Origin: Candidatus Pelagisphaera phototrophica
GTDB taxonomy: Bacteria; Verrucomicrobiota; Verrucomicrobiia; Opitutales; Opitutaceae
Length of the DNA stretch: 64,000 nt
Assembly: GCF_014529625.1 (NCBI RefSeq)
Contig: NZ_CP076039.1
Span: forward strand, 992,001-1,056,000
Reading direction: 5' to 3'
Below, piece after piece: positions 8,624-59,674 of the stretch (the first letter of the stretch is position 1; each line of letters opens with the position of its first letter). The notes beneath the pieces were generated by a model that was given only the letters and a program-made list of their open reading frames with translations, searched no databases and had not been told where the DNA came from. The position numbers were made by a program, and so were the translations under genes.

Positions 8624-8627
8624 GGAT

Positions 8628-36303: not shown

Positions 36304-36375
36304 GACTCGTAAGCGATCCGTTTAAACGCGGAAGACCGATATTTTGTATTCAGAAAAAAGATACGAAAGTTCAAT

Positions 36376-36404
36376 GAACGTCTTATTCGAATTATTAGAC
36401 GTTC
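36376..36404. repeat. 8-bp inverted repeat downstream of sulfatase
   Basis: GAACGTCT (36376-36383) and AGACGTTC (36397-36404) with a 13-nt AT-rich loop. It may be a terminator without a strong U-tract, or a dyad operator. It lies between the sulfatase and a short hypothetical ORF. Confidence 0.4.
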
Positions 36405-36419
36405 TCGAATAAAGATTGC

Positions 36420-36629
36420 ATGAGAAAATGTTTGTTTAGCTTACCCTTCGCCGCCCCAGCGGCCACCTTCGCTTTCATGTACCTTAATATGGGCGAACAC
36501 ATGAGCGAATCTGGAGGTACCCCACTAAACCCAGACGATGAAGAGAGTCTAAACAAACGCGCTGATGGAACCTGCTGGGAGCCGATCTTTCGCACCCATT
36601 TCTGGCTAGATAAGCGACTGGCCAATTGA
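36420..36629 (+). CDS. short hypothetical protein
   Basis: This 69-residue ORF begins with a hydrophobic N-terminus (LFSLPFAAPAATFAFMYLNM) and continues with an acidic, polar stretch. No family is recognised. It converges with the cdaA-like gene, leaving 8 bp between stops. It may be a spurious ORF. Confidence 0.25.
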   Translation: MRKCLFSLPFAAPAATFAFMYLNMGEHMSESGGTPLNPDDEESLNKRADGTCWEPIFRTHFWLDKRLAN

Positions 36630-36637
36630 AAAATGCA

Positions 36638-37840: not shown

Positions 37841-37846
37841 GGAAAT

Positions 37847-38317
37847 TTAAGTTTTGGATACAGCTTGTCTAAATGGGTAGTAGTTGGCCTCCCTTGCCGA
37901 AACGCGTAGTCGTTTGCAGGGCCGCTTTATCAAGGTTTCTTCGGCATTTTCCCATTCTCCGGGTGAAGCGTTTTCTCCCACTTCAAAACTGCCTCCTACT
38001 ATGACGCTGTGCTCTCCTGTCTCGCCACGATTTTCAAAAATGTTGCACAGAATATTTCCCGCATTTGTTACGGTTCGGTCGAGTCTGAGTGGAACATTAA
38101 GCCTTCCCATGAATCTTCGCTTGCAGAGCGACCTCCGCCTGCGGCGGTAAGTTAGGAGAACGTCAGCAACCTGAGAGACAAGATCAGGATTTTTCAATTC
38201 GTCGAGATGAGCGGAGATAAGACCTTTGTTGGCAATCGCTTTTTGAAGTCCTGCTCGAAGAGCTGTAAAAAACGGTCGTGACCTGAATGGGTTTTGAATA
38301 TGAGCCAGGGCTTTCAT
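37847..38317 (-). pseudogene. probable decayed fragment, weakly M28-peptidase-like
   Basis: The open frame of 156 residues ends 6 nt before cdaA. The C-terminal half reads NILCNIFENRGETGEHSVIV then GGSFEVGENA, which resembles the substrate-strand region of M28 aminopeptidases (N-x-x-x-x-x-G-x-x-x-x-x-VVVGGHFD), but the metal-ligand His-Asp is absent (GGSFEV). The N-terminal half is Arg-rich and unlike a globular domain. The ATG overlaps the stop of the next upstream fragment (ATGA). It is more likely a degenerate gene than a functional one. Confidence 0.4.
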
Positions 38318-38642
38318 GTCGAATTGGGGATCAATTTGAGATAGGCTTGGATGATCTCGGGCCGATTGGCTCGATAGAGGTTCATGTTATTGGAAATAAT
38401 GATGTAGGCTAGTGCCTTAGCCAAGGCGGTAGGAATTTCTAGGTTTAACTGGAGCAGCACTTTGGCGACGATCACTACGTACTGGGCGATAGGTTTGGTC
38501 TTGGAATGATGCTGATTGGTTATAAGAGTCGCCCGCCGGTCTCCCGGAAAGGAATTGTTTTCAATGGCGGGAGTAGCTGATAAAACAATCCGGCAGCCAC
38601 GCTGTTTTTGATAAAAGCACGTCGTTCAATTTTATTCTTCAT
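38314..38642 (-). pseudogene. frameshifted Tat-signal protein
   Basis: From the ATG at 38642 the frame reads MKNKIERRAFIKNSVAAGLF, a typical Tat signal, and continues to about GGR. There the frame must shift to recover a coherent second part (THE run QYVVIVAKVLLQLNLEIP and NNMNLYRANRPEIIQAYLKL), which ends at the TGA at 38314-38316. The family is not recognised. The frameshift lies near 38535. Confidence 0.45.
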
Positions 38643-38860
38643 GGGGCGAAGTGAGCTGATTCGATTTGCGTTTCTGCGGCAAAGCAAAAATCATCCTTTT
38701 GGGTTAATAGATCGGATCTCTCGATCGCCCGCCACCGTAACATGGCCATCTGCTCTTTCTGAGTATCTCGGAGCAACCCAATATAATTCGCTTTCGAAAA
38801 TCTGGTAGAGTACAGAAAATCTTTTCGTATCGAATAAAAGGATGCGTCTTATGTCATTTT

Positions 38861-39088: not shown

Positions 39089-39214
39089 TCACCGATCCGA
39101 TGCTTCTCTTACCTGATTTTTTGTTAAATGACAGTAAGTCAACTATTGACCAAATAATGGGTCGAAAATTACGGGGACTGTTTCAGCGTACAGGGATCAA
39201 GAGAGGAATAGAGC

Positions 39215-39352
39215 CCGGCCATTACCGAGTACTTCCCGAACTATGGTGAGACCAATACGAAGGATTTAAAAAAGTATGGGGTAACGACCACCGATAAGTT
39301 GCAGGAGGATTACGAGCGTATGTGGAAATATGTGGGGTCGCATTTCGAATGA
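39215..39352 (+). pseudogene. unidentified C-terminal gene fragment
   Basis: Forty-five codons of coherent sequence (PAITEYFPNYGETNTKDLKK, then QEDYERMWKYVGSHFE) end at a TGA. A different frame just upstream (KLRGLFQRTGIKRGIEPG) may be the preceding part after a frameshift. The style resembles the C-terminal helix of sugar-phosphate isomerase-like enzymes, but I cannot assign it. The rest of 38643-39611 holds nothing I recognise. Confidence 0.35.
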
Positions 39353-39611
39353 TGTGCGTTAGTGTAATGGTAGAATTAGCCGGGATTCAGGCTTTGGAAG
39401 TCATGGATTCCGATTCATTAATTAATTTGGTAGTGGGCGATCTCCGAGCATCACATTCTATCTCTATCTTTGGGCGTTCGGAGATTGCCCGGTGCCTTTG
39501 AGAATTATGATTTTAAGACAGTGACATGAACTGCGATTTACGCCGTAATGGGAATCGTTCGATGCTACTTTTCGAATTTCACAACGAGTTAAGACCAAAG
39601 CCAGTTTATCA

Positions 39612-40844
39612 ATGATCAATCAGCGCAGAAATTTCATCAAAAGCAGCTTGCTTGGAGCAGGGGCTCTCATGCTAGGCCAGGAAACGCTATTTGGAGATAT
39701 TCAATCTGGTATTAAGATCACCAAGATCAGCCACTATCGGGATCCCGAATACCTGAAGCCGACGTTTGCCCAAGCAAGAGATATCGTGGTCGTCGAGACG
39801 AATGCGGGGATAACAGGGATTGGGGAAGGCGGCTCAAAGGAGATGATCCAGAATTGCGCCGAGATGCTAATCGGGGAGGACCCTTTCCGGATCGAGCATT
39901 TGTGGCAGAAGGTGTATCGGCAGTACTTCTATCCGTCGGGCAGGGAACGGCTTCATGCGATGGGAGGGCTGGACATGGCTTTGTGGGATATCAAGGGAAA
40001 GTACCTTAAAACTCCGATATACGAGTTGCTGGGCGGTCTTACTCGAAACTACCTACCCTGTTACTCGACCGGATTTCCAGATCAAGGCTCGGTCGAGGAA
40101 ACCGCGCGGGCCTGTATCGAAGCAGGATTTTATGCCTATCGGGTAGGTACCGTTTCTGATGGAAGAGTATTCGATTCGCACAAGTTTCTCGACCAGAACT
40201 ACCGTTTCTATGAGCAAGTAAGAGAAGGTGTCGGTGAGAAGGGTCAATGGTGTACCGATTTCCATACCCGTTTCGACACGGCAGAGGCGGTCACCATGGC
40301 TCGCATGATCGAGCCTTTGAAACCGCTGTTTGTAGAGGATTTGATTCGTTCCGAAAACCCAGGAGTCTACCGAGCGCTGAGAGATCGGATCAATGTTCCC
40401 ATCGCGGTTGGCGAGCATTTTGGCGATCGATGGGACATAAACGAACTGATTGAGGAGAACCTGATCGACCACTCCCGAGTGACGCTGCCAAATGTGGGTG
40501 GCATTACGGAGATGAAGAAGATCGCGGCGCTTTGCGAAACGCATTATGTCGGAATGATTCCGCACTTTACGGGACCAATTTCTACAGCGGCCTTGGTGCA
40601 TGTGCTGGCATCGTCTTCGGGCTTTGTCATGGCCGAGTTAACCAAAGACGGTCCTGCGGAAATCTCCTATCTCAATGACGACTATCTGTCCTTTAAGAAC
40701 GGGAAGCTGTATCCAAATGAGAGGTCAGGATTAGGGATAGAGCTCAAACCTGAGAAGATCGAATTGGTAAATGTGATCACGAAGGGATCTGACTACGACC
40801 ACCCTGTCTTTGAGAGAGGGGATGGCTCCATTACCAATTGGTGA
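39612..40844 (+). CDS. enolase-superfamily (mandelate racemase/muconate lactonising) protein
   Basis: 410-residue MR/MLE member, probably an acid-sugar dehydratase or racemase. The N-terminus has a Tat-like signal (NQRRNFIKSSLLGAGALMLG). Blocks: AMGGLDMALWDIKGKYLKTP, QWCTDFHTRFDTAEA (first metal Asp with the His two on), PLFVEDLIRSENPGVY, PIAVGEHFGDRWDINELIEE, and MIPHFTGPISTAALVH. The His pair and Glu/His arrangement match the galactonate/mannonate-dehydratase-like subgroup. It is a paralogue of the gene at 20435, and the two are clearly diverged. Substrate unknown. Confidence 0.78.
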   Translation: MINQRRNFIKSSLLGAGALMLGQETLFGDIQSGIKITKISHYRDPEYLKPTFAQARDIVVVETNAGITGIGEGGSKEMIQNCAEMLIGEDPFRIEHLWQKVYRQYFYPSGRERLHAMGGLDMALWDIKGKYLKTPIYELLGGLTRNYLPCYSTGFPDQGSVEETARACIEAGFYAYRVGTVSDGRVFDSHKFLDQNYRFYEQVREGVGEKGQWCTDFHTRFDTAEAVTMARMIEPLKPLFVEDLIRSENPGVYRALRDRINVPIAVGEHFGDRWDINELIEENLIDHSRVTLPNVGGITEMKKIAALCETHYVGMIPHFTGPISTAALVHVLASSSGFVMAELTKDGPAEISYLNDDYLSFKNGKLYPNERSGLGIELKPEKIELVNVITKGSDYDHPVFERGDGSITNW

Positions 40845-40986
40845 GCGCTGAAGGTTTTCGTAACGATCGAACGCAAAACATTGGAAACGAAGCGACCAGC
40901 GATGATTGCATTCAATTATAGGAGCGGCTTTCGTGAGTCTTCCGTAGTATTTGCGAAGGACGGAACGCCGCGATATTCTTCTTGAA

Positions 40987-41259
40987 ATGAAAGTGCTCGT
41001 TGCAGGTGCCGCCTGACGTTTGGGAAGTTGTGTTTGCCACATTCTTTGCGAGGCGGGTATTGAGTTTCTGGCAGTCGACAAAGTCGCGGGTGACGGGACA
41101 GCGTACCCAGTTGAGGTGGTCGACTTGCTCGATTGGCAAGCGTGCGTTGATCTAATAGTCGGAGTGGATGTCCTGGCACATTTCGCCAATCTTGCTAATC
41201 GAATACAAAGCGGAAGACCGCAGTACACTAGGCACGTCGCAGAAAAACGACGGTCCTGA
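40987..41259 (+). pseudogene. NAD-dependent epimerase/dehydratase remnant
   Basis: Starts MKVLVAGAA, the beginning of a Rossmann Gly-motif. An in-frame TGA at 41014-41016 then stands where a Gly codon (GGA) is expected, followed by RLGSCVCHILCEAGIEFLAV and DLIVGVDVLAHFANLANRIQ. After about 75 codons homology fades. This is the N-terminal part of an extended SDR with a nonsense mutation and no C-terminus. Confidence 0.7.
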
Positions 41260-42055: not shown

Positions 42056-42826
42056 TCATTTCATTGCGGAAAAATTGGTCGGAACAATCAATTCGCCTGT
42101 CACGCCCCCTTCTACCACCATTCCGCCACCAGCTCGTTCCCTTGAAGCGGCTGCAGCCGACTTCCAGTCTTCATCTGCCCGCTGATTCTCGAAGGCCTCT
42201 TCACGCCCTCCCTCACTTTCGTGGGCTACGATATATATTAACGTGCTCGTTCCGCCATCTTGGTCGGCCATCGGGTGGAAATAGGCTATATTCTCAATTC
42301 CATGCTTTTCAAAAAGGCCTATCGTATGATCTCTAAAACGTGCATCAAGATGACGTCGCATGCCATCTTTGCAGATGTAAGTTCGGAGTTCAAAAAGACG
42401 CTCCGGATCGGCCTGGATTTTTTTTACCGGCATCGAATATTCCGTTGTCTGCATAAAAACAGCCTCTATCTTTTCTATGAGCCTTCCATTTTTAGAAGAT
42501 GCCTTAGCCGCCGCTTTCCAATCGGGGTCCGCTTGGAAGGATTTCCACATCGACTCCTGATCCAGCCTGCTCGGGAAGGCTATGATGTAAATCAACTTGT
42601 TGTCGGGATTATCCTTCGGAACCCAATATCCCACATTCTCAATGCCGTGCTTGGCAAACAAGCCAGTGGTATGATCTCGGAATCGAGCTATCAAGTCGTC
42701 CAGTTTGCCCTCATTCGCGTAGTAGGTTCGCATTTCGTAAACCCGCGTGTCATGGGCCTTGATGGACGCCAAAGGGACGACGGTTGCGAAGAGGAAGAAA
42801 TATACAAATGAGCGTAACCTATTCAT
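42056..42826 (-). CDS. exported NIPSNAP-family protein, two tandem domains
   Basis: About 256 residues from the ATG at 42826, which begins a signal peptide (VYFFLFATVVPLASIKA). Two NIPSNAP ferredoxin-like domains follow: VYEMRTYYANEGKLDDLIAR, HGIENVGYWVP and ELRTYICKDGMRRHLDARFR, HGIENIAYFHP. The family has no settled enzymatic role; members often sit beside catabolic genes. Last gene of the nine-gene minus-strand run that begins at the DASS transporter, 77 bp after a sulfatase. Confidence 0.8.
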   Translation of the reverse strand: MNRLRSFVYFFLFATVVPLASIKAHDTRVYEMRTYYANEGKLDDLIARFRDHTTGLFAKHGIENVGYWVPKDNPDNKLIYIIAFPSRLDQESMWKSFQADPDWKAAAKASSKNGRLIEKIEAVFMQTTEYSMPVKKIQADPERLFELRTYICKDGMRRHLDARFRDHTIGLFEKHGIENIAYFHPMADQDGGTSTLIYIVAHESEGGREEAFENQRADEDWKSAAAASRERAGGGMVVEGGVTGELIVPTNFSAMK

Positions 42827-42903
42827 AAAAATAATCGAATATTCTGAAACGGGATTTGCGAGCAAAATCGCCTCTGTCATTCAGAATAGTTTTTCTTTCA
42901 AAA

Positions 42904-44655
42904 CTAATTTGGTAAATGAGCCAAGGTTGCGTAAAAGGCTCCCGAAAGTTGTTTGCCTGAGTCGTCGTGGAACCAAGCTTGAAGCGTTTGCCTGCCGAGA
43001 GGCATTTCAATCGTGAGCTCAATCAGAGTGCCCTCGTGATTCGGCTTAGCCACCATGCGGGCTCCCCCGTTCAAGCTCAGCGTTCCTAAAGCAATCGGCA
43101 TAGCGACGCCCAAATCAATAGGCATTCCCCCAATGGTTTCGCCAGGACCGATGGCCGAAAGAGGACGATTCATGTAAAAAGGCCAACGACTAAGTTGTAC
43201 CCTATAATTACCCTCTTTTTCTACTTCTATATGCCAAGGTCCGCCCATAGAATCTGCCCCCGCAACTTTATCGCGGTTATCAAAATCCGCATCCAACCAG
43301 TTGGAACAGGCAAGATGCGTTATGGGCTCTGCTGAATTGCCGACAACAATCGGCTCTATTACATCGATAGATGCCTCAATCGATGCCCAATATGCGTCGT
43401 AATAACCCTTCAGCTCGCGAGCGATATCGGGATACTCCGCGAAGACATTTGCCGCCTGGCTAGGATCATTCTCTAGGTTGTAGAGTTCAGAATCACCCTG
43501 CAATCGCCAATCTTTCCACATAACAGAGCTCCTGAAGTACTTCTCTGGCTTCGTCCTGCCGCCAAACTGAACAATGGCCTTTCTTTCGTCTAAAGCAGCT
43601 GCGTCTTTGAAGACGGGTACAAGAGAAAGTCCATCGAATGGCTCCGCAGTAGCTGGCACTTTGAAATTCAACAAATCAACGAATGTCGGGGCGAGATCCA
43701 CAACATGAGAAACCGTTCCGATAGTTCTCGGTGAGCCCAGATCACCATTGGGCCAGCGAAGAAAGCAGAAGGCTCGATGGCCGCCTTCATATCCGGACCC
43801 TTTTTTGCCTCTCATGCCCGCATTGTAAATGCCATCACCGAGGGCGGTTCCATTATCATTCATAAAGAGGACAATCGTGTTATCTTTTGCGCCCCTTTGT
43901 TCGAGCCATTCCTCCAACCTGCTAAAATTCTCGTCTGCGTTCCCGATGAGACCGTAGAATTTCGCAATTCTCTCGTCCTCGACCTTGTGCTTGTATTTCT
44001 CAAAATCCTCTTCAAGAGGGTGGAAAGGACTGTGAGGCGTATTGAGAGCTATGTAGGTGAAAAACGGTTGTTCAGCTTCCAGCTTCTGGTCCATCCATTT
44101 CATAGCTTCATCAAACCATAGGTTTGCGCAAAAACGGTCGGAGTATTTTACCTCAGTCCCATCCAAATACCGGGTGTAGTAATAATCATTGTCGTATTCG
44201 TTTTCTGATGCCAATCCCCAGCCTTTGTGCCAAATTGCATGCACGAAACCACGATCCATGGGCCGGTTGGGATAGGCATCCCCAAGACCCCACTTACCGA
44301 ATAATCCCGTAGCGTATCCATTAGCCAAAAAGGTCTCTGGCATGGTCACGATGTCGCGTCTCATCCAATTGCGGGCGGATGGTACCGTGCTTGCTTTGTT
44401 GCGAAGTGCATACAGACCAGTCATTAGTTCGCTCCGAGTTGGCGTGCAGACAGGTGCGACGTGGAAATTACCCAAACGAACGCTCTCCCTGTGTAACGCA
44501 TCGAAGGCAGGCGTTTCAAGTATGGGATGTCCGTGACATGAAAGGTCACCGAAGCCTTGATCATCGGTAATAAGAATTATGACGTTCGGACGGTCTGCTG
44601 CCGAAGCGGTCAAAACCGTCATTAAGATTGCAAAAGTCAGTTTTTTCACGATCAT
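42904..44655 (-). CDS. secreted sulfatase with C-terminal accessory domain
   Basis: Type I sulfatase, about 583 residues from the ATG at 44655 (signal VKKLTFAILMTVLTASA); seven codons further upstream are open. Core: RPNVIILITDDQGFGDLSCH, signature Cys70-Thr-Pro-Thr-Arg (CTPTRSELMTG), LFGKWGLGDAYPNRP, VLFMNDNGTALGDGIYNAG. After the catalytic domain an extra 130 residues (GGPWHIEVEKEGNYRVQLSR, TLIELTIEMPLGRQTLQAWF) form a beta-rich accessory region seen in some verrucomicrobial sulfatases. It is 52 bp downstream of the esterase, on the same strand as the gallate-type genes. Confidence 0.86.
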   Translation of the reverse strand: MIVKKLTFAILMTVLTASAADRPNVIILITDDQGFGDLSCHGHPILETPAFDALHRESVRLGNFHVAPVCTPTRSELMTGLYALRNKASTVPSARNWMRRDIVTMPETFLANGYATGLFGKWGLGDAYPNRPMDRGFVHAIWHKGWGLASENEYDNDYYYTRYLDGTEVKYSDRFCANLWFDEAMKWMDQKLEAEQPFFTYIALNTPHSPFHPLEEDFEKYKHKVEDERIAKFYGLIGNADENFSRLEEWLEQRGAKDNTIVLFMNDNGTALGDGIYNAGMRGKKGSGYEGGHRAFCFLRWPNGDLGSPRTIGTVSHVVDLAPTFVDLLNFKVPATAEPFDGLSLVPVFKDAAALDERKAIVQFGGRTKPEKYFRSSVMWKDWRLQGDSELYNLENDPSQAANVFAEYPDIARELKGYYDAYWASIEASIDVIEPIVVGNSAEPITHLACSNWLDADFDNRDKVAGADSMGGPWHIEVEKEGNYRVQLSRWPFYMNRPLSAIGPGETIGGMPIDLGVAMPIALGTLSLNGGARMVAKPNHEGTLIELTIEMPLGRQTLQAWFHDDSGKQLSGAFYATLAHLPN

Positions 44656-44707
44656 CCGAAAAAAACATGCGATCAAAGCTATTTGGAAGTCAATCGCTTT
44701 ACCCGGT

Positions 44708-45826
44708 CTATTGGGTGATTATAAAGGCAGCAATGAGATCGTTGGCTTGACTGGAGTAGGGGGCCAGGCCGTGTGATTCGGAGATCACTTTGTAGTGGAC
44801 GACATCGCCGTCGAGGTAGCTGTATTTGATAATATCAGCGGGTCGATTCGTACCGTTTCCGGGGATGCCTTCAGCGTCCGCGAGCTGGGGTCCTTTTTCA
44901 CCCATGGCTTGGGCAAAGCGGAAGATGCTTTCTTGGGCAGAGTGAAAAGTCGTGCCGACTCCGTTCCCACCTTTGTAGGGAATGACCGGATCGTTTTGGG
45001 CACCGATGTTGAGGATCTTTCGGCCGCTCGCGGGTACGATGACTTGGTCGTAGTCATTCGTACCTGATGCATTGAAACGGAATGTTTCATTTTGATACAT
45101 CTTGGAGATCATTTGGGAAACTCGCCCAGCCGCTTTTTGGAAAGCGGCTCCGTCTAACTCAATCAAGAGTCGGTTGACCATGCCTGATCCGTTCGAGCTG
45201 CCGTACAGCGATAGGTTGCCCGCATCCACATTGTCGTAGGTTTTAATCAGAGTGATGAGATCCCGTATGAAAGCGACGTCAGGAGTTTTTGAAGCTTCCT
45301 TGTCGATATTCCAACTTTTCAAATAGCCATTAGGAGCGATGCGGATGATGTCGTCGAGGCGACCGCCCATGCTGTTGATAAAGTTCGAGTTGCCTCCATT
45401 TCCGTGAAGCATGATGACCACAGGGAAGGGCCCGTCGCCGGAAGGGACGCGGACTGCGGCGGTTCGATCGAATCCTCCAGGCTCCTGTTCCCAGGTTTGA
45501 TTGATGGTGAGCGTTTCCCCATCTGCGAGAGTGCCGTTGCTGGCTTCAATTTTGCGAACGCGATAGAAGTGATTGGGCTTCGATTCGAAATCGATGCTCT
45601 GTTTGAAAACCAGCGAGGAGACATTTGCTGAGAGCGTTGAAATGGGTTGCCAGACGCCGAAGGAAAGGTCCGAGCGGCTTTGAAACTCATAGCTTTTACC
45701 TGTTTCCGAATCGAGAGTTAATCTCACCTCCCTAGCAGAATTGAGGTCTACGGAAAGAATCTGGGCGTTCGAAGTGAAGGGGATGGCGATAACGAAGAGT
45801 GAAATGAGGGGAAGTGGGCTCGACAT
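44708..45826 (-). CDS. secreted esterase, alpha/beta hydrolase of the PHB-depolymerase/feruloyl-esterase type
   Basis: 372 residues. Signal peptide (LPLISLFVIAIPFTSNA), then a 90-residue beta domain (EFQSRSDLSFGVWQPISTLS, ending FYRVRKIE) common in verrucomicrobial exported proteins. The catalytic domain reads VVIMLHGNGGNSNF (oxyanion region), NLSLYGSSNGSGMVNRLL with the nucleophile Ser in Gly-Ser-Ser-Asn-Gly, IGAQNDPVIPYKGG (Asp region) and ISESHGLAPY (His). LpqC-like esterases split ferulate, acetate or polyester bonds. Its position between two sulfatases downstream of aromatic ring-cleavage genes suggests phenolic esters; that is inference. Confidence 0.78.
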   Translation of the reverse strand: MSSPLPLISLFVIAIPFTSNAQILSVDLNSAREVRLTLDSETGKSYEFQSRSDLSFGVWQPISTLSANVSSLVFKQSIDFESKPNHFYRVRKIEASNGTLADGETLTINQTWEQEPGGFDRTAAVRVPSGDGPFPVVIMLHGNGGNSNFINSMGGRLDDIIRIAPNGYLKSWNIDKEASKTPDVAFIRDLITLIKTYDNVDAGNLSLYGSSNGSGMVNRLLIELDGAAFQKAAGRVSQMISKMYQNETFRFNASGTNDYDQVIVPASGRKILNIGAQNDPVIPYKGGNGVGTTFHSAQESIFRFAQAMGEKGPQLADAEGIPGNGTNRPADIIKYSYLDGDVVHYKVISESHGLAPYSSQANDLIAAFIITQ

Positions 45827-45885
45827 GCTACCGTTAGATTGTTCAATGTTAAGGGTTCGCGTTTAACTTCATTATGCTTCTCCAG

Positions 45886-47529
45886 CTACTCGAATGCGAC
45901 TCCGACTTCGCGCGCATAATTGAACCATCGCTTTACCAGGTCTTCCTTCCGATCCGGGTGTTGATTTGAGAGATCGTGTCGCTCACCTGGATCTTTATCC
46001 AGGTTATACAGTTCCCATTCGACAGACTCTCCTCCAGAAGAATAAATCTTCCAATCGCCTTTAACCAATGCGCGTTGGTCATGCAACTCCCAGCCAATAG
46101 CTTCATCACCGTGGACATCAAGATGCCTATTTTCTAGGTGGGCAAAAAACGATTTACCGCGCACTGGGTTGACGGTATCTCCACGGTGCGTTCTACCAGG
46201 ATGGCTGATCCCCGCGACGTCGAGCAAAGTTGGCAACACATCTTGCACGGTCAAATACTCCTGACTGACATAGCCGTGGTTATCCAATGAAGAAGCATTA
46301 ACAATAGCGGCCGCTCGAGTCCCTCCCTCGTATAGAGAATATTTGGCGTCTCGAAAGGGTGCCATACTGGCTGAGGCCCAACCGCGGCCGTAGACCGTAA
46401 ACGAGTTATTGTTACCGATACTTTCTAAGGTTTGTTCATAGCCTTTTGCGAGCGGTGGAGGGAATCTGAATGCGGCACCATTGTCTGACATAAACAGGAC
46501 AAACGTATTTTCTCGTTCCCCAATAGCTTCAAGGTAATCAAGGACACGACCGATATGAAAATCCATGTTCTCCACCATGGCCGCATAGATCTCCATCTTA
46601 CGACTTAGTATTAATTTCTCGTCATCAGAAATACTGTCCCAGGAATCGGCACCAGACTCATAAACGCTCATATTAATGTTTTCTGGAAGTACACCCTGTT
46701 TCATCGCCCGTTCAACACGTTGGGCACGCAAAACATCATAGCCCTCATCATATTGATTCTTATAACGATCACGCCAAGCTTGAGGAACTTGTATTGGGAA
46801 ATGAGGTGCAGAGAAAGCGAGGTATGCAAAGAACGGCTGTTCACTGTCTTTGTTACCACCTATGTATTCAATTATCTTATCCGTGAACGTTTTCGTTGAA
46901 AAATAATCCTTCGGTAACTCCTTAACCACTTCCCAGTTCTCCCTATAAATGAAGGGTTCCGCACGGGCAATTCCGCCATGGGCACCACCATCCGGCGGAA
47001 TTAGATGTAAGGCAGTACCCGTCAACTGGGCAAAGGACTGATCAAAACCACGGCCTGCCGGGATGTGCTCTTCAACCAAGGCCCGACCAAGGTCCCATTT
47101 GCCTGTCATATAAGTGTGGTAACCCGCATCCTGAAGGATTTCCGGTAAAGCCGCAACGCGCTGACTCAAGTATCCGGCGTACTCCGGTGTGCCGTAACCA
47201 ATGGCTTCTCTGTTCGGTGCTAAGCCATTATCAAATACGCGCATGAGCTCCATGGAACCTATTCCGGCTTCGTGATTGTCCATTCCCGACATGAGCATAG
47301 CCCGGGTTGGTGCACATACCGGTGCCGTATGAAAGTTGGCCAGGCGTATACCGGATTCTGCCAAGTCATCAAGGTGAGGTGTTTTAATTTCGCCGCCAAA
47401 CGATCCAATATCGGTGAAGCCCATGTCATCGGCTACGATTAGTAAAATATTTGGGCGTTGATTTTGTGCACCAGCACAAATCCCAATGGTCCAGACAATC
47501 AGAATCAGAATTAGTTTTTTAAGGTACAT
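45886..47529 (-). CDS. secreted arylsulfatase (AtsA-like)
   Basis: Type I sulfatase of about 547 residues from the ATG at 47529 (signal YLKKLILILIVWTIGICAGA). Core: RPNILLIVADDMGFTDIGSF, signature Cys72-Ala-Pro-Thr-Arg (CAPTRAMLMSGMDNHEAGIG), YMTGKWDLGRALVEEHIPAG, VLFMSDNGAAFRFPPPLAKG, and GEAIGWELHDQRALVKGDWK-type C-terminal block (starting at DEAIGWELHDQRAL). The DNHEAGIGSM segment is typical of the AtsA/PAS arylsulfatase subfamily, which accepts aryl sulfates. It lies 58 bp after the PrpF-type tautomerase gene, at the junction between the ring-cleavage genes and the exported enzymes. Confidence 0.86.
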   Translation of the reverse strand: MYLKKLILILIVWTIGICAGAQNQRPNILLIVADDMGFTDIGSFGGEIKTPHLDDLAESGIRLANFHTAPVCAPTRAMLMSGMDNHEAGIGSMELMRVFDNGLAPNREAIGYGTPEYAGYLSQRVAALPEILQDAGYHTYMTGKWDLGRALVEEHIPAGRGFDQSFAQLTGTALHLIPPDGGAHGGIARAEPFIYRENWEVVKELPKDYFSTKTFTDKIIEYIGGNKDSEQPFFAYLAFSAPHFPIQVPQAWRDRYKNQYDEGYDVLRAQRVERAMKQGVLPENINMSVYESGADSWDSISDDEKLILSRKMEIYAAMVENMDFHIGRVLDYLEAIGERENTFVLFMSDNGAAFRFPPPLAKGYEQTLESIGNNNSFTVYGRGWASASMAPFRDAKYSLYEGGTRAAAIVNASSLDNHGYVSQEYLTVQDVLPTLLDVAGISHPGRTHRGDTVNPVRGKSFFAHLENRHLDVHGDEAIGWELHDQRALVKGDWKIYSSGGESVEWELYNLDKDPGERHDLSNQHPDRKEDLVKRWFNYAREVGVAFE

Positions 47530-47587
47530 ATTTATATAATGTTGGAACAACCAGACATTGAAAAGAAATGTTCACAGGATAACCAGC

Positions 47588-48673
47588 TTACGGAATATAT
47601 ACTTCTCCCTTACTAATGATACGAGCGGTGCGAATGGCTCCCGTCTCATGAATTTCCAATTCGGAATTTTTCGAGGAAGATTTCAGACTCAGGGTAAATT
47701 GCCCAGATGGATGCTCTAGGATAACAGAGGCGAAGTCGTTTGGCACGTTAGCAATGCCCTCCGCAATTGACCCCGGAAGTAAGCCAACCACAGCGACTGA
47801 AAACGCGCCCATGACACCGATGGCCGCATGGCATTGATGGGGTATGAAGGTCCGAGTGTTCATCAAGCCGCCTGACCGTGGCGGTGAAAGCAAACACATC
47901 TTGGGCACGGTTAAGTGTGATACATCGCCTAAGTTCATTTTCGGACCCATTTGCAAGCGAATGGACTCGAGACGTTCCTTTAGGTCTTCATTGGAATCTA
48001 GCTCTTCTTTGCTTTCATAACCGGTGATTCCGAAATCCGTCACCCTGAGTGCCACGACTGGCATGCCGTTGTCGACGCAGGTAACCTGCACACCATCCAC
48101 TTCATCCAAGACACTCCCAGTAGGTAGCAATTTTCCGCAGTTTATGCCAACGGTCTCGAGGTAGTTACAAATCACCGGTGCGCCTATTCCCTGAACCGCA
48201 TCGACCTTCGCAGATCCCGCGACAGCAAGTTTGAAATCTGGAGTCTGTACCGTGACTTCGCACAATCCACCGTTGTTGACCATGTGGACAACTGCCTTGG
48301 TGGTCGGATCCGTTGGTGAAAGCATTCCGCTCTCGATTGCAAAATGAAGTAGCCCGGCAAGGATATTGCCACAACCTTGGGCTGCAGAAAGTCGGCCCTC
48401 TCCAACAACCACTTGCAAGAAAAGGTAATCCAAATCGGCGTCCTCACGTGCTGAGCGGCTCACCAATGCGACTTTAGCGGTCAGTAGATCGCCACCACCC
48501 AGTCCATCGATCTGCCGAATGTCACCAGGCCTGAGTCCTTCCATGGCTGCGAGGATAACTTTATCCCTCTCTTCACCAGATTCCGGAAGGTCGGCCGTAT
48601 CGAAAAAGATGCCTTTGGAGCTACCACCCCGGATTTGCATATATGGAATTCGCGACGCCACTCTAGTACCCAA
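47588..48673 (-). CDS. galD: PrpF-family 4-oxalomesaconate tautomerase (GalD-like)
   Basis: PrpF/GalD fold isomerase (361 residues, cytosolic). In the gallate pathway GalD interconverts tautomers of 4-oxalomesaconate. Visible: RIPYMQIRGGSSKGIFFD, IDGLGGGDLLTAKVALVSRS, DADLDYLFLQVVVGEGRLSA then QGCGNILAGLLHFAIE with the active-site Cys, and PPRSGGLMNTRTFIPHQCHA. The pattern from DLDYLFLQV onward is very close to Pseudomonas GalD as I remember it. The start may be TTG at 48673 (overlapping the aldolase stop by 11 nt) or GTG at 48661; no ATG precedes the conserved N-terminus. Methylaconitate isomerase is the alternative, disfavoured by the neighbours. Confidence 0.82.
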   Translation of the reverse strand: MGTRVASRIPYMQIRGGSSKGIFFDTADLPESGEERDKVILAAMEGLRPGDIRQIDGLGGGDLLTAKVALVSRSAREDADLDYLFLQVVVGEGRLSAAQGCGNILAGLLHFAIESGMLSPTDPTTKAVVHMVNNGGLCEVTVQTPDFKLAVAGSAKVDAVQGIGAPVICNYLETVGINCGKLLPTGSVLDEVDGVQVTCVDNGMPVVALRVTDFGITGYESKEELDSNEDLKERLESIRLQMGPKMNLGDVSHLTVPKMCLLSPPRSGGLMNTRTFIPHQCHAAIGVMGAFSVAVVGLLPGSIAEGIANVPNDFASVILEHPSGQFTLSLKSSSKNSELEIHETGAIRTARIISKGEVYIP

Positions 48674-49289
48674 ACTTTTTATCCCACTCGTAAATCTTTA
48701 AGGAGGTTTCCCCGGCATTGAGCCGGACTCTCACAGCGGCCTCCTTGTCCTCGCGGGCCTGGGCCTTTTCAATGGCTTCTTCAACTCTGTCCTGTGGAAC
48801 AATGACCACTCCGTCCCTGTCGCCTACAGCAATGTCGCCCGGATGAATTGATATGTCTCCAATTGTAATCGGTTCGTTTAAACACCCTTCCGGGTCCTTA
48901 CCTGTTCCTTTGATGCACAACCCTCGACAAAAAATAGGGAAGCCTAATTCTTCTATTGCATCAGCATCACGGATACAGGAGTCAATAACCAAGCCTGCCA
49001 CGCCTTGTTTCATAGCTCCAGAGGTAAGCAAGTCTCCCCAGTAGCCCGCATCATAGGCGCCCGAGCAATCCGCCACAATGACGTCACCTGGTCTCGCGTA
49101 AGCATAGGCTCGGTGAAGATTAATATTCATGTGGGCCTTGCACTTAACTGTATAGGTCGGACCGCAAATCCGCATGGCGGGATGAAGCGGTTTAATCTGG
49201 CAAGGCAGGTCCCCGATTTGACCGAGAGCCTCGTGGAGAGTGGCCGTTCCGAATTGAGACAGTGTTTTTATTTGTTCGGCGGTTATCAT
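48663..49289 (-). CDS. galC: RraA-type 4-carboxy-4-hydroxy-2-oxoadipate aldolase (GalC/LigK-like)
   Basis: Class II pyruvate aldolase of the RraA-like fold, 208 residues, splitting CHA to pyruvate and oxaloacetate. I chose the ATG at 49289 (MITAEQIKTL), 4 nt after the upstream stop; a longer in-frame extension is not protein-like for this family. Blocks: ARPGDVIVADCSGAYDAGYW with WGDLLTSGAMKQGVAG, then DSCIRDADAI, where Arg107-Asp108 match the substrate/metal-binding Arg-Asp of HMG/CHA aldolases, and GDIAVGDRDGVVIVP. RraA itself (an RNase E regulator) lacks this context. Overlaps the tautomerase gene; same operon. Confidence 0.82.
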   Translation of the reverse strand: MITAEQIKTLSQFGTATLHEALGQIGDLPCQIKPLHPAMRICGPTYTVKCKAHMNINLHRAYAYARPGDVIVADCSGAYDAGYWGDLLTSGAMKQGVAGLVIDSCIRDADAIEELGFPIFCRGLCIKGTGKDPEGCLNEPITIGDISIHPGDIAVGDRDGVVIVPQDRVEEAIEKAQAREDKEAAVRVRLNAGETSLKIYEWDKKFGY

Positions 49290-49293
49290 GCTA

Positions 49294-50037
49294 CTAGTCG
49301 AAATGAATGTCAGGGACGATAGTATCCAGAATGACAGGAACTTTGCTTTGAAAGGCCTCCGCGAATTTGACCGGTTTCTTCCCGGAAATTCGGCGAGCGT
49401 GGTTTCCGCGTCTGTCGCCCAATTCAGTGTAGTAGATTTGCAAATATGTCTGCGCTCGCATACAGGCCATGGCCGCCTTCTTTTTTTCGAATACCGAAGT
49501 GATATCGACATAGGTGTCGGGAACAAAGCCTGACAGTTCAGGTTGATGCGGCTCAAAGCTATACCAAAGAGGAGGAGTGATGGTTTTAAATGCTGCGTCG
49601 ACACCGGCACCCGCTGAAAGCAATCGTGCCTTTTCCACTGTCTGACAGGTCAAGGGATGATCGGGATTAAAAGGATCTTTTGCGGAATGGGTCAGGATAA
49701 CATTCGGTTCAAATTCGCGAATGATATCCGCCAATTGCTGAACGCGTTCGTCATTCACGACCATAGGGTAGTCGCCCCAATCCAGGCAGCGAAATTCGCA
49801 GCCTAATATTTCAGAAGCCTCGGCTGACATTTCATGTCTCAGTTGCTTCACATCTTCAATTGAACGATTGGGGTCCTCCTTCCAGAGTACCCCCGATTCC
49901 CCTCGCTCACCGTAGGAAAGAGTCAGGTTCAACACTTCGCCGCCCTGCTCCGCCGTTTTGGCAATGGTTCCGCCAGCTCTCCATACGAAGTCCGCAGCAT
50001 GCGCTCCGACGACCAGTAGCTTTCTTTTGGTTTCCAT
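49294..50037 (-). CDS. galB: 4-oxalomesaconate hydratase, PIG-L family (GalB-like)
   Basis: Zinc hydratase of the PIG-L/LmbE fold, 247 residues, adding water to 4-oxalomesaconate to give CHA. The PIG-L metal motif (usually AHPDDE) is GAHAADFVWRAGG, the version I recall from Pseudomonas putida GalB, with His13 and Asp16. Further GalB-like blocks: LSYGERGESGVLWK, CLDWGDYPMVVNDERVQQLA, ILTHSAKDPFNPDHPLTCQT, YSFEPHQPELSGFVPDTYVD. These extend far beyond generic deacetylase similarity, so GalB is a confident call. Third gene of the operon, 21 bp after the dioxygenase. Confidence 0.88.
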   Translation of the reverse strand: METKRKLLVVGAHAADFVWRAGGTIAKTAEQGGEVLNLTLSYGERGESGVLWKEDPNRSIEDVKQLRHEMSAEASEILGCEFRCLDWGDYPMVVNDERVQQLADIIREFEPNVILTHSAKDPFNPDHPLTCQTVEKARLLSAGAGVDAAFKTITPPLWYSFEPHQPELSGFVPDTYVDITSVFEKKKAAMACMRAQTYLQIYYTELGDRRGNHARRISGKKPVKFAEAFQSKVPVILDTIVPDIHFD

Positions 50038-50058
50038 AATATCGATCAGGCTCCAGGT

Positions 50059-51030
50059 TCAGACATTGTTCTCGGAATCTTCCGGCATCGGTGAGCCGCG
50101 GGTGTGAAAACTCTTAACGGTTTGCAGGCCCCAGGCCTGTCCTTTTTTGCGTTCGTCAAGGGACCAGACAATTGGTTTGTAATCGGGGTCCAAAACCAGG
50201 CGGGCCGTACTGTTTGCTATCTCCACTCTGTGGCCTCCTGGTTCAAAGAGGTATAGAAAAAAGGTTTGCTGAATAGCATGCTTGTGGGGCCCGGTTTCGA
50301 TAGTAATACCATTTTCCAATGCAATATCCGCAGCAATCAGGACTTCTTCCCGGCTGTTGACCGCAAAAGTCACATGGTGGAATCTGCCTTTTGCTCCCTG
50401 CAGGTGATCTTCTGTAACAGCCAGGTCGTAAGACTTGGAATTGACCGAAAACCAGGCTCCCAATACCCTGTCCTCATCGGAAATAATGGTTTCCGTCAAT
50501 CGACCTCCCAAGGTGTTGAGCTGGAAATCTTGAAAGGCAGCTACATCGGGAGCCAACAAATTTAAGTGATCGAGACGCCGCACATTCATACCTCTGCCGG
50601 GAAATTTGGAAGCGGTGTTTTTCAGAGCCGATGCGTCTTCCTTACTGGATTGGTATTTCTCAGATTCAAAATAGATTTCCGTCAACTGACCACTTGGCAT
50701 TCTGAACTGGAAGCTGCGGCCTTGACCCAGATCTCCTTCCGTCCAGCCCAGACCGTGCCCTGTCGCTTCAATCGCCTTTGCTTTACATTCCAGAATCTCA
50801 GAACTTCTTAAACGCCAGGCATAGTGCCCCAGATCCGCATGGGTGTGCGCCGTCAATTTTAAAGTATGATGTTCGTAATCGTCGTAGGCACGCAGGTATA
50901 CAGAATCACCTTTCTCATCGCTAATAGACATACCCATGATCTCTGAAAAAAAGCGGACGCTTTCCTCAAGTTTCGGCGTTAACAATTCCACATGTGCCAT
51001 GTGGGCAATATCCCATTGAATCGTATCCAT
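50059..51030 (-). CDS. type I extradiol dioxygenase, catechol-2,3-dioxygenase-like (VOC fold)
   Basis: Two-domain vicinal-oxygen-chelate dioxygenase, 323 residues, expected to open a catecholic ring next to the diol using Fe(II) or Mn(II). Metal ligands by alignment from memory with C23O: His155 (RRLDHLNLLAPD), His219 (RFHHVTFAV) and Glu270 (GGHRVEI). Active-site His251 (GPHKHAI) and Tyr260 (FFLYLFEPGG) match His246 and Tyr255 of the mt-2 enzyme. The residue at the C23O His199 position appears to be Tyr201 (KSYDLAV). The N-terminal domain is the usual non-catalytic copy. It sits where GalA would be in a gallate operon, so gallate, or a related hydroxylated benzoate or catechol, is the likely substrate. 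Confidence 0.83.
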   Translation of the reverse strand: MDTIQWDIAHMAHVELLTPKLEESVRFFSEIMGMSISDEKGDSVYLRAYDDYEHHTLKLTAHTHADLGHYAWRLRSSEILECKAKAIEATGHGLGWTEGDLGQGRSFQFRMPSGQLTEIYFESEKYQSSKEDASALKNTASKFPGRGMNVRRLDHLNLLAPDVAAFQDFQLNTLGGRLTETIISDEDRVLGAWFSVNSKSYDLAVTEDHLQGAKGRFHHVTFAVNSREEVLIAADIALENGITIETGPHKHAIQQTFFLYLFEPGGHRVEIANSTARLVLDPDYKPIVWSLDERKKGQAWGLQTVKSFHTRGSPMPEDSENNV

Positions 51031-51077
51031 TTTTATAATTCAGTTTATTAATTATCTGATATTTATCGAAATCCCCC

Positions 51078-52481
51078 TCAAGGAACCAGCCCAAGCCAAG
51101 GCACTACCACAAGCATCAAAGCGGTAAGAATAATCACCCAAAATACGCTTATCACCAAACCGGGCCAAAGCATGTCAGTCATTCGATAATAACCTTTTGA
51201 ATAGGTTATTAAGGCTACGGCGTCCAGAGGAAGTAGGAAGGCGCACGAGGCAGTAAAAATAACGGGTAGCGCCAATAAAATAGGCGGTTGACCGATTGCG
51301 ATTGCGAGGGCAACGATAGGCGGAATCATCACCGCGTTTACCACGGGCCCAATCGGCACCACAAAGTGAATTAGAACTGTAAAGGTGCTGATCGCAATAA
51401 TGAGCCAGAGAACGCTTATCCCACCGGCTCCATCGAAAATAGAGGACACCACCCAGGTTGCGAGGCCGGTATCACGACTGGCCAGGCCGATCGAGGAAAC
51501 GGCTCCGATCATTAAAAGAATATCCCAGCCAATACCCTTGGATACCTCTTTCCAGGTTGAAACACCAATTCCCGGCAGAAAAAAAACAACCGAACCAATC
51601 AGCGCGATCATGGTCACATCCAAAGCCTTTGGATACCAGTTACTTAGTATCCATAATATTATTACGGTACCAAAAATTACCATCACCTTTTTCTGGCCAG
51701 TGCTAAACGGCTCTTTCGATGGGTCTTTTTCTCCCGGATTCTCTGATATGTTCGAAATCTCGGGTGGAAAGAATTTCAGGAGTACGAACCAGGAAATAGG
51801 AATAAGTAACACAACCATGGGAATGCCAATAGCCATCCATTTTAAAAATGGAACCTCTCCCCCACCCAGATCCGCGAGCATGACCAGTCCCATGATGTTA
51901 ATCGAACTGCCCGCCGGAGTGGCAATGCCACCAATAAACGCGGCGATCGTTATACCGAGCATCAGGACTTTTCCGAAATTGGAGGACCCTGGTTTCAAAT
52001 TCTCTTGCTGAAGGATTCCTAACCCGAGAGCCATCCATAGTGCGCAGGCCGGCACGTCCGACATAACCGACGAAACAACCGCAGTTCCAATCATGAAAGC
52101 CAGCAGTATTTTTCGCGTATCGGTTCCAGACTTGGATAAGAGCCACTGCGCAAAGCGACTATCCAATTTGGTTTCTCTCACTACCGCTGCGAAGACAAAC
52201 ATGGCTAGGACAAAGAAAAATACTGGACTGATAAAATTGCTTGAGGCCTGACGTAACGTTGCCGATCCGACCAATGCCTGACCGCCTATTGCCAGTATCG
52301 ACGTGACAGGAATAGGTAGTGCTTCAGTCACCCACAGAATAAGACAAGCAACAGTCAGAGCCATCAAGCGATGGCCCTCGCTGCTCAGAGAATCGGCTAC
52401 TGGCAGGAAAAGGATCAGGAAAAATGCTGCCAGGGCAATGATACAACCTTTCAAAGAACTTGTAGTTTTCTGTATAGACAT
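51078..52481 (-). CDS. DASS-family (SLC13-like) anion transporter
   Basis: Integral membrane transporter, 467 residues, with 11-12 hydrophobic helices. Divalent anion:Na+ symporter features: LTVACLILWVTEALPIPVTSIL (N-terminal family block), FVLAMFVFAAVVRETKLDSR, ASSNF and GIATPAGSSINIMGLVMLAD (SNT-like substrate loop), and PIGPVVNAVMIPPIVALAIA. Known members move succinate, citrate, sulfate or tartrate. As first gene of the operon it is the likely importer of the aromatic or dicarboxylic substrate, replacing the MFS permease GalT of Pseudomonas. An IS-end-like sequence lies about 40 bp upstream of its start. Confidence 0.85.
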   Translation of the reverse strand: MSIQKTTSSLKGCIIALAAFFLILFLPVADSLSSEGHRLMALTVACLILWVTEALPIPVTSILAIGGQALVGSATLRQASSNFISPVFFFVLAMFVFAAVVRETKLDSRFAQWLLSKSGTDTRKILLAFMIGTAVVSSVMSDVPACALWMALGLGILQQENLKPGSSNFGKVLMLGITIAAFIGGIATPAGSSINIMGLVMLADLGGGEVPFLKWMAIGIPMVVLLIPISWFVLLKFFPPEISNISENPGEKDPSKEPFSTGQKKVMVIFGTVIILWILSNWYPKALDVTMIALIGSVVFFLPGIGVSTWKEVSKGIGWDILLMIGAVSSIGLASRDTGLATWVVSSIFDGAGGISVLWLIIAISTFTVLIHFVVPIGPVVNAVMIPPIVALAIAIGQPPILLALPVIFTASCAFLLPLDAVALITYSKGYYRMTDMLWPGLVISVFWVIILTALMLVVVPWLGLVP

Positions 52482-52696: not shown

Positions 52697-52935
52697 CTAT
52701 GCCGCGATTGTCTGTTCCATCTGCCCCCGGATACAAGCTTTTCGGCGATCTGGCGCTTGTGCCAGGGGCTCACAGCTTTTTTCCAGAGTCTCCTTTAAAG
52801 GCTCTTTGCTCAGCATCTCGTCTGCGAACATTCGCTTGAGCCTAGCGTTCTCCTTCTTAAGCTCTTTGAGCTGTTCGGCCTGATCGACCTCCATAATGCC
52901 GAGCTCCTTCTTCCAGCGGTGGGTACACCATAGGC
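52697..52935 (-). pseudogene. IS3-family OrfA remnant
   Basis: Translation gives HRWKKELGIMEVDQAEQLKE followed by LKKENARLKRMFADEML, the leucine-zipper C-terminal half of IS3-family OrfA (usual form YYRWRKEYGGM...LKELEKENARLK). The HTH half is missing and no OrfB follows. The fragment begins exactly where the adjoining pilus-subunit fragment (52936 on, opposite strand) ends, marking a rearrangement junction. Confidence 0.8.
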
Positions 52936-53184
52936 CTAAGTCCAGGCAATGGAACCTATAAACAGCGTCGCATGAGTAGTGGCACTAACACGCTCAACTA
53001 TAATCTCTATACTGCCGCTAGCCGCGAATTTGTTTGGGAAGATGCTACTACTAGTAGAGCCACAGTAAGTGGCAGTGGTACAGGTACGAGCACAAATCAT
53101 GTGGTTTACGGACGCATACCAGCCCGCCAGAACATACGCGCAGGAAGTTACAGCGACACTGTCAATTTAATTGTAACTTTTTGA
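52936..53184 (+). pseudogene. spore coat protein U (SCPU/Csu pilin) C-terminal fragment
   Basis: From 52936 the frame reads LSPGNGTYKQRRMSSGTNTL, then NYNLYTAASREFVWEDATTS, and ends GRIPARQNIRAGSYSDTVNL with IVTF before a stop. This is the C-terminal half of an SCPU domain, the subunit of Csu-type chaperone-usher pili. The N-terminal half and the chaperone/usher genes are absent, and the break coincides with the IS3 OrfA remnant. The family is mostly proteobacterial, so this piece was probably acquired. Confidence 0.85.
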
Positions 53185-56139: not shown

Positions 56140-56149
56140 TTTCCATTGG

Positions 56150-56219
56150 TGAGAGGAAATTCAATTGTTCCGATTTGATTCGGAGGGGAGAGTCAGAAGT
56201 TGGTTTTGCGTTATCAAGC
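56150..56219 (+). repeat. 70-bp IS-end repeat, copy 3
   Basis: Begins TGAGAGGAAATTCAATTG and is nearly identical through about 70 bp to the copy at 57722, including the stretch GTCAGAAGTTGGTTTTGCGT. It directly abuts the truncated DUF1579 gene. The start (TGA) and length suit an IS3-family right end. Confidence 0.7.
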
Positions 56220-57407: not shown

Positions 57408-57721
57408 TGTTCAAAAAGGAGATTCAACATACAACTGAGTCAATACTTAATTGGCGTCATTCTGAGCCGTTTGCATAATTGGCCATATACGCTGCTCGTG
57501 AGGATGAACCTGCTCATTCCATTGGGAAGAGACCATTGGATACCGCAAATTCACTATTTCAAGTACTCATCTAACACCCCCCCAAAAAATCCAAGTCATT
57601 CCCTTTGAATCATTGCAGCAAGGGGTATCCGAACTTTTGGGAAGACAAGTAACCCTTCCCCGGATTAACGAGCAATCCACTGCCTTCAAGCACAGCTCAA
57701 CTTCCATAGGCTCCATTAAGT

Positions 57722-57791
57722 TGATAGGATATTCAATTGTTCCGATATGATTCAGAGGGGAGGGTCAGAAGTTGGTTTTGCGTTATCAAGT
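57722..57791 (+). repeat. 70-bp IS-end repeat, copy 4
   Basis: Direct repeat of 56150-56219 with a handful of substitutions; forms the left boundary of the IS-like unit. Confidence 0.7.
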
Positions 57792-59395: not shown

Positions 59396-59674
59396 GTCCT
59401 TTGGGAAATAATTTTTTTGGGGAAAATCGGAACAATTGAATTTCCTATCAACAATCATAGACCCTCGCAGAACCGTGCGAATGGTTCTTTTGGCTTCCAA
59501 TCGTGAGAGTGCTTTTCGGATCGCTGCATCGCTACCGAGGTCCAAAAAATCATTTTTAGAAAATGCCCAACCCGTCTGGTTGCCATATATTCTCGATACA
59601 AGCTTATTATCAATCGATTGCATCCTTATAAGGTAGACTATTTTGTCACAATTAGAGGGGTATTTGTGTGACAA
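59390..59674 (-). pseudogene. AbiEi/DUF6088-like antitoxin N-terminal fragment cut by an IS end
   Basis: Starts SHKYPSNCDKIVYLIRM; the core LVSRIYGNQTGWAFSKNDFL and DLGSDAAIRKALSRLEAKRT, IRTVLRGSMI match the winged-helix N-terminus of DUF6088/AbiEi-type antitoxins (GWAFTPxDFLDLGSR..V.KALSRL...G.IRRL.RGLYDYP). From residue 75 the frame is the IS end itself (IVDRKFNCSDF), so the native gene is interrupted at 59450. No toxin partner is visible. Confidence 0.75.
59424..59450 (-). repeat. IS-end-like sequence, copy 5 (inverted)
   Basis: Read on the minus strand from 59450: TGATAGGAAATTCAATTG then TTCCGATTT. Inverted relative to copies 3 and 4 and adjacent to the OrfB remnant, so it marks the other terminus of the element. 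Confidence 0.7.

Follow-up and report, generated by a model that had tools for sequence, protein, structure and literature searches.

A probable acquired operon for gallate-type meta-cleavage with a type I dioxygenase as candidate ring-opener in Candidatus Pelagisphaera phototrophica

Among described systems, the gal cluster of Pseudomonas comes closest to the locus reported here. In P. oryzihabitans (our locus L114), it comprises a LigB–LigA ring-opener (PF02900 and PF07746), an MFS carrier, the hydratase GalB, an aldolase for 4-carboxy-4-hydroxy-2-oxoadipate (CHA) and a 4-oxalomesaconate (OMA) tautomerase. GalB, GalC and GalD without a dehydrogenase or lactonase represent the logic of trihydroxybenzoate degradation. 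We analyzed a window of 64,000 nucleotides from Candidatus Pelagisphaera phototrophica (contig NZ_CP076039.1, positions 992,001 to 1,056,000), in which a minus-strand operon shares these three enzymes and the direct-cleavage logic, whereas its putative ring-opener is a type I (VOC-fold) dioxygenase and its carrier a DASS-family protein. Judged by sequence, the set appears to work like a gal pathway but fails the classical cluster in one feature, the LigB-type GalA. The LigAB protocatechuate 4,5-cleavage cluster of Azospirillum (L112) also contains relatives of GalB, the aldolase and GalD, but its LigAB, amidohydrolase and Gfo/Idh dehydrogenase are not found in the window run. AromaDeg assigns gallate dioxygenases to LigB, and in its accessible text gallate is not listed among type I substrates (PMC4250580). 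Among the titles and abstract openings listed by our literature search, none dealt with a gallate dioxygenase of type I; the search did not extend to preprints or to most subscription journals, and prior work may exist. The solved chain nearest to the window dioxygenase, 9wgj (E=3.6e-93), shows that a relative has been studied already.

The core of the operon consists of five genes, running on the minus strand from 52481 to 47588:

51078..52481, minus strand: DASS-family carrier, presumed aromatic-acid importer (TIGR00785, 201.7 bits, cut-off 198.6; Na_sulph_symp and CitMHS)
50059..51030, minus strand: two-domain extradiol dioxygenase of type I (VOC), putative ring-opener
49294..50037, minus strand: GalB-type 4-oxalomesaconate hydratase with a PIG-L fold (5cgz, E=2.1e-58)
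48663..49289, minus strand: RraA-type CHA aldolase, GalC/LigK type (NF006731, above cut-off; 3noj, E=2.2e-36)
47588..48673, minus strand: PrpF-family 4-oxalomesaconate tautomerase, GalD/LigU type (NF033377, 434.7 bits, cut-off 440; 6p3j, E=8.7e-94)

The gaps between successive genes measure 47, 21, 4 and −11 bp, which bears out the tight packing given in a preliminary description of this locus. For the aldolase, the ATG at 49289 is the likely start, as opposed to the mechanical open reading frame (ORF) start at 49610.

We propose that these genes probably form an acquired operon for the uptake of a trihydroxybenzoate, with gallate as the likeliest candidate, and for its meta-cleavage to pyruvate and oxaloacetate; our confidence in gallate as the substrate is moderate. 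The DASS protein would import the acid, and the type I dioxygenase would open the ring beside vicinal hydroxyls, yielding 4-oxalomesaconate directly. Because the cleavage product of a trihydroxylated ring is an acid rather than an aldehyde, no dehydrogenase or lactonase would be required. GalD would tautomerize the ring-opening product, GalB would hydrate the tautomerized product to CHA, and the aldolase would split CHA. With less confidence, we suggest that an arylsulfatase and an esterase-like protein encoded further along the run might liberate the acid from precursors that carry sulfate or ester groups. We infer the ring-opening role of the dioxygenase, its substrate, and the import of an aromatic acid by the DASS protein from sequence and gene context. 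In favor of the proposal are the enzyme assignments, the intact metal site of the dioxygenase, the lack of a LigB match in the organism's own genome, the recurrence of the set, and the tannases and MFS carriers found near relatives.

At the level of sequence and catalytic residues, the hydratase and aldolase identities are established and that of the tautomerase is very likely. The nearest solved chain to the PIG-L protein is GalB (5cgz), while the next, a deacetylase, reaches only E=2.9e-10. Its motif reads AHAAD, where deacetylases in the same alignment read AHxDD or PHPDD. All 34 GalB-type rows conform to A-H-x-(A/G)-D-F, with Ala or Gly replacing the deacetylase Asp, which we take to be the deacetylase catalytic base. 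The best NCBIfam match is a deacetylase model at 70.6 bits, far below its cut-off of 182.5, with no GalB model among the NCBIfam matches of this protein. A deacetylase function was ruled out by these scores and the absent catalytic Asp, and the earlier assignment of the gene to GalB, and not to the sugar deacetylases, stands. The aldolase passes NF006731 (182.6 bits, cut-off 179) and retains an Arg–Asp pair found in 36 of 36 rows. The tautomerase falls slightly short of its NCBIfam model but keeps Lys67, present in 22 of 23 rows with the remaining row gapped there, and Cys101, present in all 23; these are the positions at which the LigU entries 6p3h and 6p3k depart from 6p3j. Its identity as GalD/LigU is very likely on this evidence. 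For both enzymes, profiles, solved chains and kept residues agree with what had been described.

To place the set in a wider context, we searched other bacteria with the window proteins. The dioxygenase, GalB, aldolase and GalD occur together in 22 of 87 loci, of which 17 are from Bacteroidota, three from Alphaproteobacteria (Agrobacterium vitis, Roseibium and Thioclava), one from a gammaproteobacterium (Phytohalomonas) and one from an acidobacteriotum. The gene order of the full set varies by lineage, which argues that the linkage does not stem from shared ancestry alone. On a 62-row tree, the linkage label changes 8 times against a shuffle mean of 18.8, with 0 of 500 shuffles that low, although near-copies in this tree favor clustering of that kind. 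Bacteroidota dioxygenases have GalB alongside in 21 of 21 cases, and the aldolase and GalD are also present in all 17 loci whose contigs continue far enough. Among the matches listed, the closest relatives of the window dioxygenase are from Bacteroidota, at 65–77% identity. A plasmid search with the dioxygenase returned 295 records, each below 60% identity; GalB lies less than 100 bp from the dioxygenase in 12 of 30 plasmid records among the matches listed, a count for which 60 of 76 GalB plasmid records were listed.

The cassettes of A. tumefaciens pAt (L107) and of Bacteroidota (L009–L029) share the dioxygenase sub-family, GalB, the aldolase and GalD with the window. They differ in having ABC or MFS carriers, tannase or carboxylesterases and no sulfatase of the window's kind, and most Bacteroidota loci carry a DUF1932 dehydrogenase, unlike the window run. 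MFS proteins of one cluster occur in 12 of 31 analyzed loci, beside Bacteroidota copies; for the two members scanned, the best-fitting family is aromatic acid/H+ symport, both below that model's cut-off. In L107, the gene directly after GalD encodes a tannase (PF07519, 437.9 bits); Methylobacterium (L047) carries another tannase, with 51% identity to the L107 enzyme, at a distance of 4.1 kb from the dioxygenase. Carboxylesterases are found in A. vitis and in three Bacteroidota loci. The carboxylesterase and BD-FAE neighbors were set aside, their nearest solved chains being general esterases. Separately, the tautomerase gene of Flectobacillus (L023, 13294–14357) matches as two overlapping pieces, and is perhaps frameshifted or misassembled.

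No LigB (PF02900) match was found in the organism's own genome, with a control positive in 4 of 14 genomes. Together with the pairing of the type I enzyme with GalB, GalC and GalD elsewhere, this supports a plausible replacement of GalA by an unrelated family. Among 24 genomes or records behind the dioxygenase loci, LigB matches occur in 14, all of them Bacteroidota genomes, and are lacking in 6 genomes and 4 plasmid records. Four of the matches were inspected; they are open frames of 292–319 residues that look like 4,5-DOPA-dioxygenase types. Compared with the 87 loci, these four gave nothing at E 1e-3, and the LigB matches of carrier genomes were set aside. Neither GalA, LigB, LigI nor LigC matched in the 22 full-set loci.

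Several observations weigh against gallate cleavage by this operon; they concern the mechanism of the dioxygenase, the looseness of its linkage to the set, and genes that point to another substrate. The window enzyme shares with 1f1x (homoprotocatechuate 2,3-dioxygenase), 3lm4 and 7q2a the two-domain VOC sequence, three metal ligands and the His251 and Tyr260 equivalents. In an alignment to these chains and 9wgj, the 2-His-1-Glu metal site is kept as H155, H219 and E270. At the position of the second-sphere catalytic His200 of 1f1x, however, the window enzyme has Tyr201, a feature absent from the preliminary description; 3lm4 and 7q2a have His there and 9wgj has Tyr. Tyr201, Lys199 and the three metal ligands are invariant in 88 of 88 dioxygenase rows, namely the window, 7 plasmid loci and 80 genome loci, the latter being the best 80 of at least 584 confirmed matches and describing the near sub-family only. 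The Agrobacterium pAt dioxygenase, outside these rows, likewise has Tyr. In published work, His200 of homoprotocatechuate 2,3-dioxygenase is termed a proton source (PMC11264262). In the gallate dioxygenase DesB, exchange of His192 for Phe abolishes measurable activity, and this His192 occupies a position similar to that of His194, the catalytic residue of BphC, a type I enzyme (PMC3962378). Given these roles of His200 and DesB His192, Tyr201 is an anomaly that bears on mechanism. BphC His194 presumably corresponds to His200. With a Tyr in place of the usual catalytic His, even extradiol cleavage is a tentative assignment.

The same residue could alter the cleavage mode. In a rival reading, the enzyme is a plain catechol 2,3-dioxygenase or, as the label of 9wgj (catechol 1,2-dioxygenase) implies, one of intradiol type, and merely neighbors gal-like genes. 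Several records do name members of this sub-family catechol 2,3-dioxygenase. The window enzyme scores 303.8 bits against the catechol 2,3-dioxygenase equivalog TIGR03211, but the cut-off of 320.2 is not reached, and the repeated linkage to GalB, GalC and GalD, in several orders and lineages, speaks against a chance neighborhood. We consider this explanation very improbable. Tentatively, and as a possibility we rate as less likely than not, these enzymes may constitute a sub-family of gallate dioxygenases of type I that is widespread but mislabelled. In it, Tyr would replace the catalytic His, accompanied by an invariant Lys at the second position ahead of the Tyr, and the third gallate hydroxyl would perhaps share in proton handling. 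This would be a separate evolutionary solution to opening the gallate ring, spread between phyla with GalB, GalC and GalD and, in the lineage of the window, linked with an arylsulfatase that acts on sulfated phenolics.

The linkage of the dioxygenase to the other enzymes is not universal. Among 34 Bradyrhizobium loci, whose neighborhoods were compared solely with the query proteins, GalB lies within 10 kb in 2 and GalD in 0; the dioxygenase sub-family is therefore not tied to the set and is probably functionally wider than it. Conversely, of 14 regions fetched with GalB, two contain the full set, this dioxygenase included (L107 on Agrobacterium pAt and L120 in Rhizobium etli), three carry the LigB type (Azospirillum L112, Pseudomonas L114 and Vibrio L117), and nine have neither type of ring-opener within 5 kb.

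A different substrate, protocatechuate, would be 4,5-cleaved by the dioxygenase, and genes outside the run would supply the enzymes that oxidize the aldehyde and open the lactone, leaving the final steps to GalD, GalB and the aldolase. We regard this as unlikely but far from negligible. LigB-type clusters for protocatechuate, as in Azospirillum, also use GalB, GalC and GalD. A DUF1932 dehydrogenase, which would be superfluous on a pure gallate route, is present in at least 20 of 31 analyzed loci and was found in all of the 17 Bacteroidota full-set loci except L019 and L009. It also stands beside GalB, GalC and GalD in Pantoea and Sodalis (L109 and L115), and beside GalB and the aldolase in R. 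daejeonense (L116), where a tautomerase starts about 3 kb further on; in all three, neither kind of ring-opener lies within 5 kb. The occurrence of DUF1932 without this dioxygenase in Pantoea, Sodalis and R. daejeonense indicates that it is no marker of the type I enzyme. No DUF1932 match was found in the organism's own genome, in a search where no control gave signal. LigI-like genes lie near the relatives L003, L042 and L074, and a 4-hydroxybenzoate 3-monooxygenase lies near the Thermus copy of the dioxygenase. The own genome has six Amidohydro_2 matches, but two of these proteins resemble fuconolactonases, below cut-off. The tannases beside two relatives argue against protocatechuate; no tannase was found in the own genome, again with no control signal, and this counts against gallate. 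The preliminary description held that LigC and LigI are missing. This is true of the run, whose nine genes include neither the dehydrogenase nor the lactonase; it does not extend to the whole genome, which has the Amidohydro_2 matches and was not searched for LigC. Likewise, its verdict that protocatechuate is disfavored is sustained by the gene content of the run, while the DUF1932 and LigI-like genes of relatives keep that substrate alive. In Thermus oshimai (L002, 10588–11508), a DUF6282 protein, a possible lactonase, is encoded between the dioxygenase and the GalB relative, in a cluster without a tautomerase.

The five genes are only part of a longer run. The features around them are as follows:

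45886..47550, minus strand: arylsulfatase like P. aeruginosa PAS (1hdh, E=4.1e-133; Pfam Sulfatase)
44708..45826, minus strand: esterase-like protein with a signal-peptide-looking N-terminus (by eye; weak matches)
42904..44676, minus strand: second sulfatase (Pfam Sulfatase, 153.8 bits; best solved chain 6bia, E=1.6e-41)
42056..42880, minus strand: NIPSNAP protein, end of the close-set run (PF07978, 102.3 bits)
52697..52984, minus strand: transposase-like remnant upstream of the operon (HTH_Tnp_1, 23.2 bits, just below the cut-off of 24.1)
52897–53184, plus strand: spore-coat-protein-U fragment upstream of the DASS gene

The tautomerase, sulfatase, esterase-like, second sulfatase and NIPSNAP genes follow one another at 37, 59, 31 and 23 bp, as measured from mechanical ORF starts. 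The close-set run therefore comprises nine genes from 52481 to 42056, with every gap at most 59 bp; the operon described earlier as five genes is correct in those genes and incomplete in extent, four further minus-strand ORFs following past 47588. We infer that all nine may be co-transcribed. No terminator-like site was found in the tautomerase–sulfatase gap, in a scan that yields no more sites than shuffles. The promoter and terminator scan was uninformative overall (9 promoter and 14 terminator sites, where shuffles gave 14.5 and 13.0), and no RNA families or tRNAs were found in the window. The transposase-like remnant and the spore-coat-protein-U fragment both sit in the 847 bases that precede the DASS gene. 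An assignment to the Planctomycetes–Verrucomicrobia–Chlamydiae group would agree with the PSD and ‘Planctomycete cytochrome C’ domains seen in window proteins.

The sulfatases raise a further alternative, in which the dioxygenase acts on a different acid with three hydroxyls or with methoxy groups (3-O-methylgallate, for example), or on a phenolic from sulfated algal or plant compounds. PAS acts on small aryl sulfates, and a PAS-like sulfatase and an esterase-like protein in the run of a sulfatase-rich genome would suit such a source. The own genome, however, has 151 sulfatase matches in 4.09 Mb, and with so many, adjacency to the gal genes may be chance; after this count, we no longer treated the adjacency as strong evidence. 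A demethylase was not observed among the nine genes, although none was searched for. We find this alternative improbable, and sulfated phenolics as the source remain a working hypothesis. In a comparison that scored 150 of 357 candidates, the PAS-like sulfatase matches 15 places in its own genome at E<=1e-30, itself included, the next best at 43, 35 and 34% identity. No PAS-like match was found in full-set loci elsewhere, L021 and L023 giving weak matches only (24 and 23%); the scanned L021 match is a sulfatase with an SGSH_C domain. The esterase-like protein has no Pfam family, matches a feruloyl esterase (9j07) at E=4.8e-6 and scores 27.6 bits against the PHA-depolymerase-like model NF050058, far below its cut-off of 150. 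As a general observation, the sulfatase count marks the genome as that of a sulfated-compound specialist.

Returning to the proposed gallate operon, the gal gene set looks acquired, because four of its genes cluster with Bacteroidota and because the dioxygenase occurs in only one of 286 genomes of the class (E<=1e-20), the window's own; the genomes lacking it include two congeners. In gene trees, the window GalD falls in one clade with 17 Bacteroidota (100/99), and GalB within a Bacteroidota clade (99/99). The dioxygenase stands beside Saprospiraceae L009 (100/96), inside Bacteroidota (100/100), and the aldolase groups with L019 and L009 (97/100), L019 not being nearest in the dioxygenase tree. 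The set is not confined to this lineage. In the phylum, an OMA tautomerase was found in 3 of 387 genomes at E<=1e-60, the window's own included; the two other loci showed no further gal gene by tblastn. One of these two, in a genome of the same family and 37% identical, adjoins apparent tripartite tricarboxylate carrier genes (by eye).

Comparison with a congener (G256) gives a view of the site itself. Its DNA tracks window positions 36002–38734 and 39201–41006 at 91–93% and then jumps to 45651–45843 at 85%, which corresponds to codons 1 to 57 of the esterase-like gene. No gal genes were found in that 19-kb stretch. The relic indicates that the esterase gene was already at the site before the congeners split. 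The breakpoint lies 17 bp before the start of the esterase-like gene, and fits two scenarios equally: the sulfatase and gal genes may have arrived together in a single block, or G256 may have lost DNA on either side. The esterase-like gene is matched in only these two of 120 family genomes. In the congener locus (L123), the relic occupies 9456–9648, next to an MLE-type gene, where the window has the operon, and a nitric oxide synthase oxygenase-domain protein is encoded beside it (8013–9134). L123 and the window also share short repeats of about 40 bases (window 56145–56187, 57720–57759 and 59424–59456).

If the proposal is correct, gallate and tannin degradation would have a second family of ring-opening enzymes. 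Where records read catechol 2,3-dioxygenase or VOC family protein, the ability of Bacteroidota, rhizobia and agrobacteria to use gallate may then be overlooked. The presence of Tyr in place of His would offer a natural experiment on the extent to which ring cleavage requires the second-sphere His. For the organism itself, the locus raises the possibility of a sulfatase-rich bacterium that uses sulfated or esterified phenolics as carbon.

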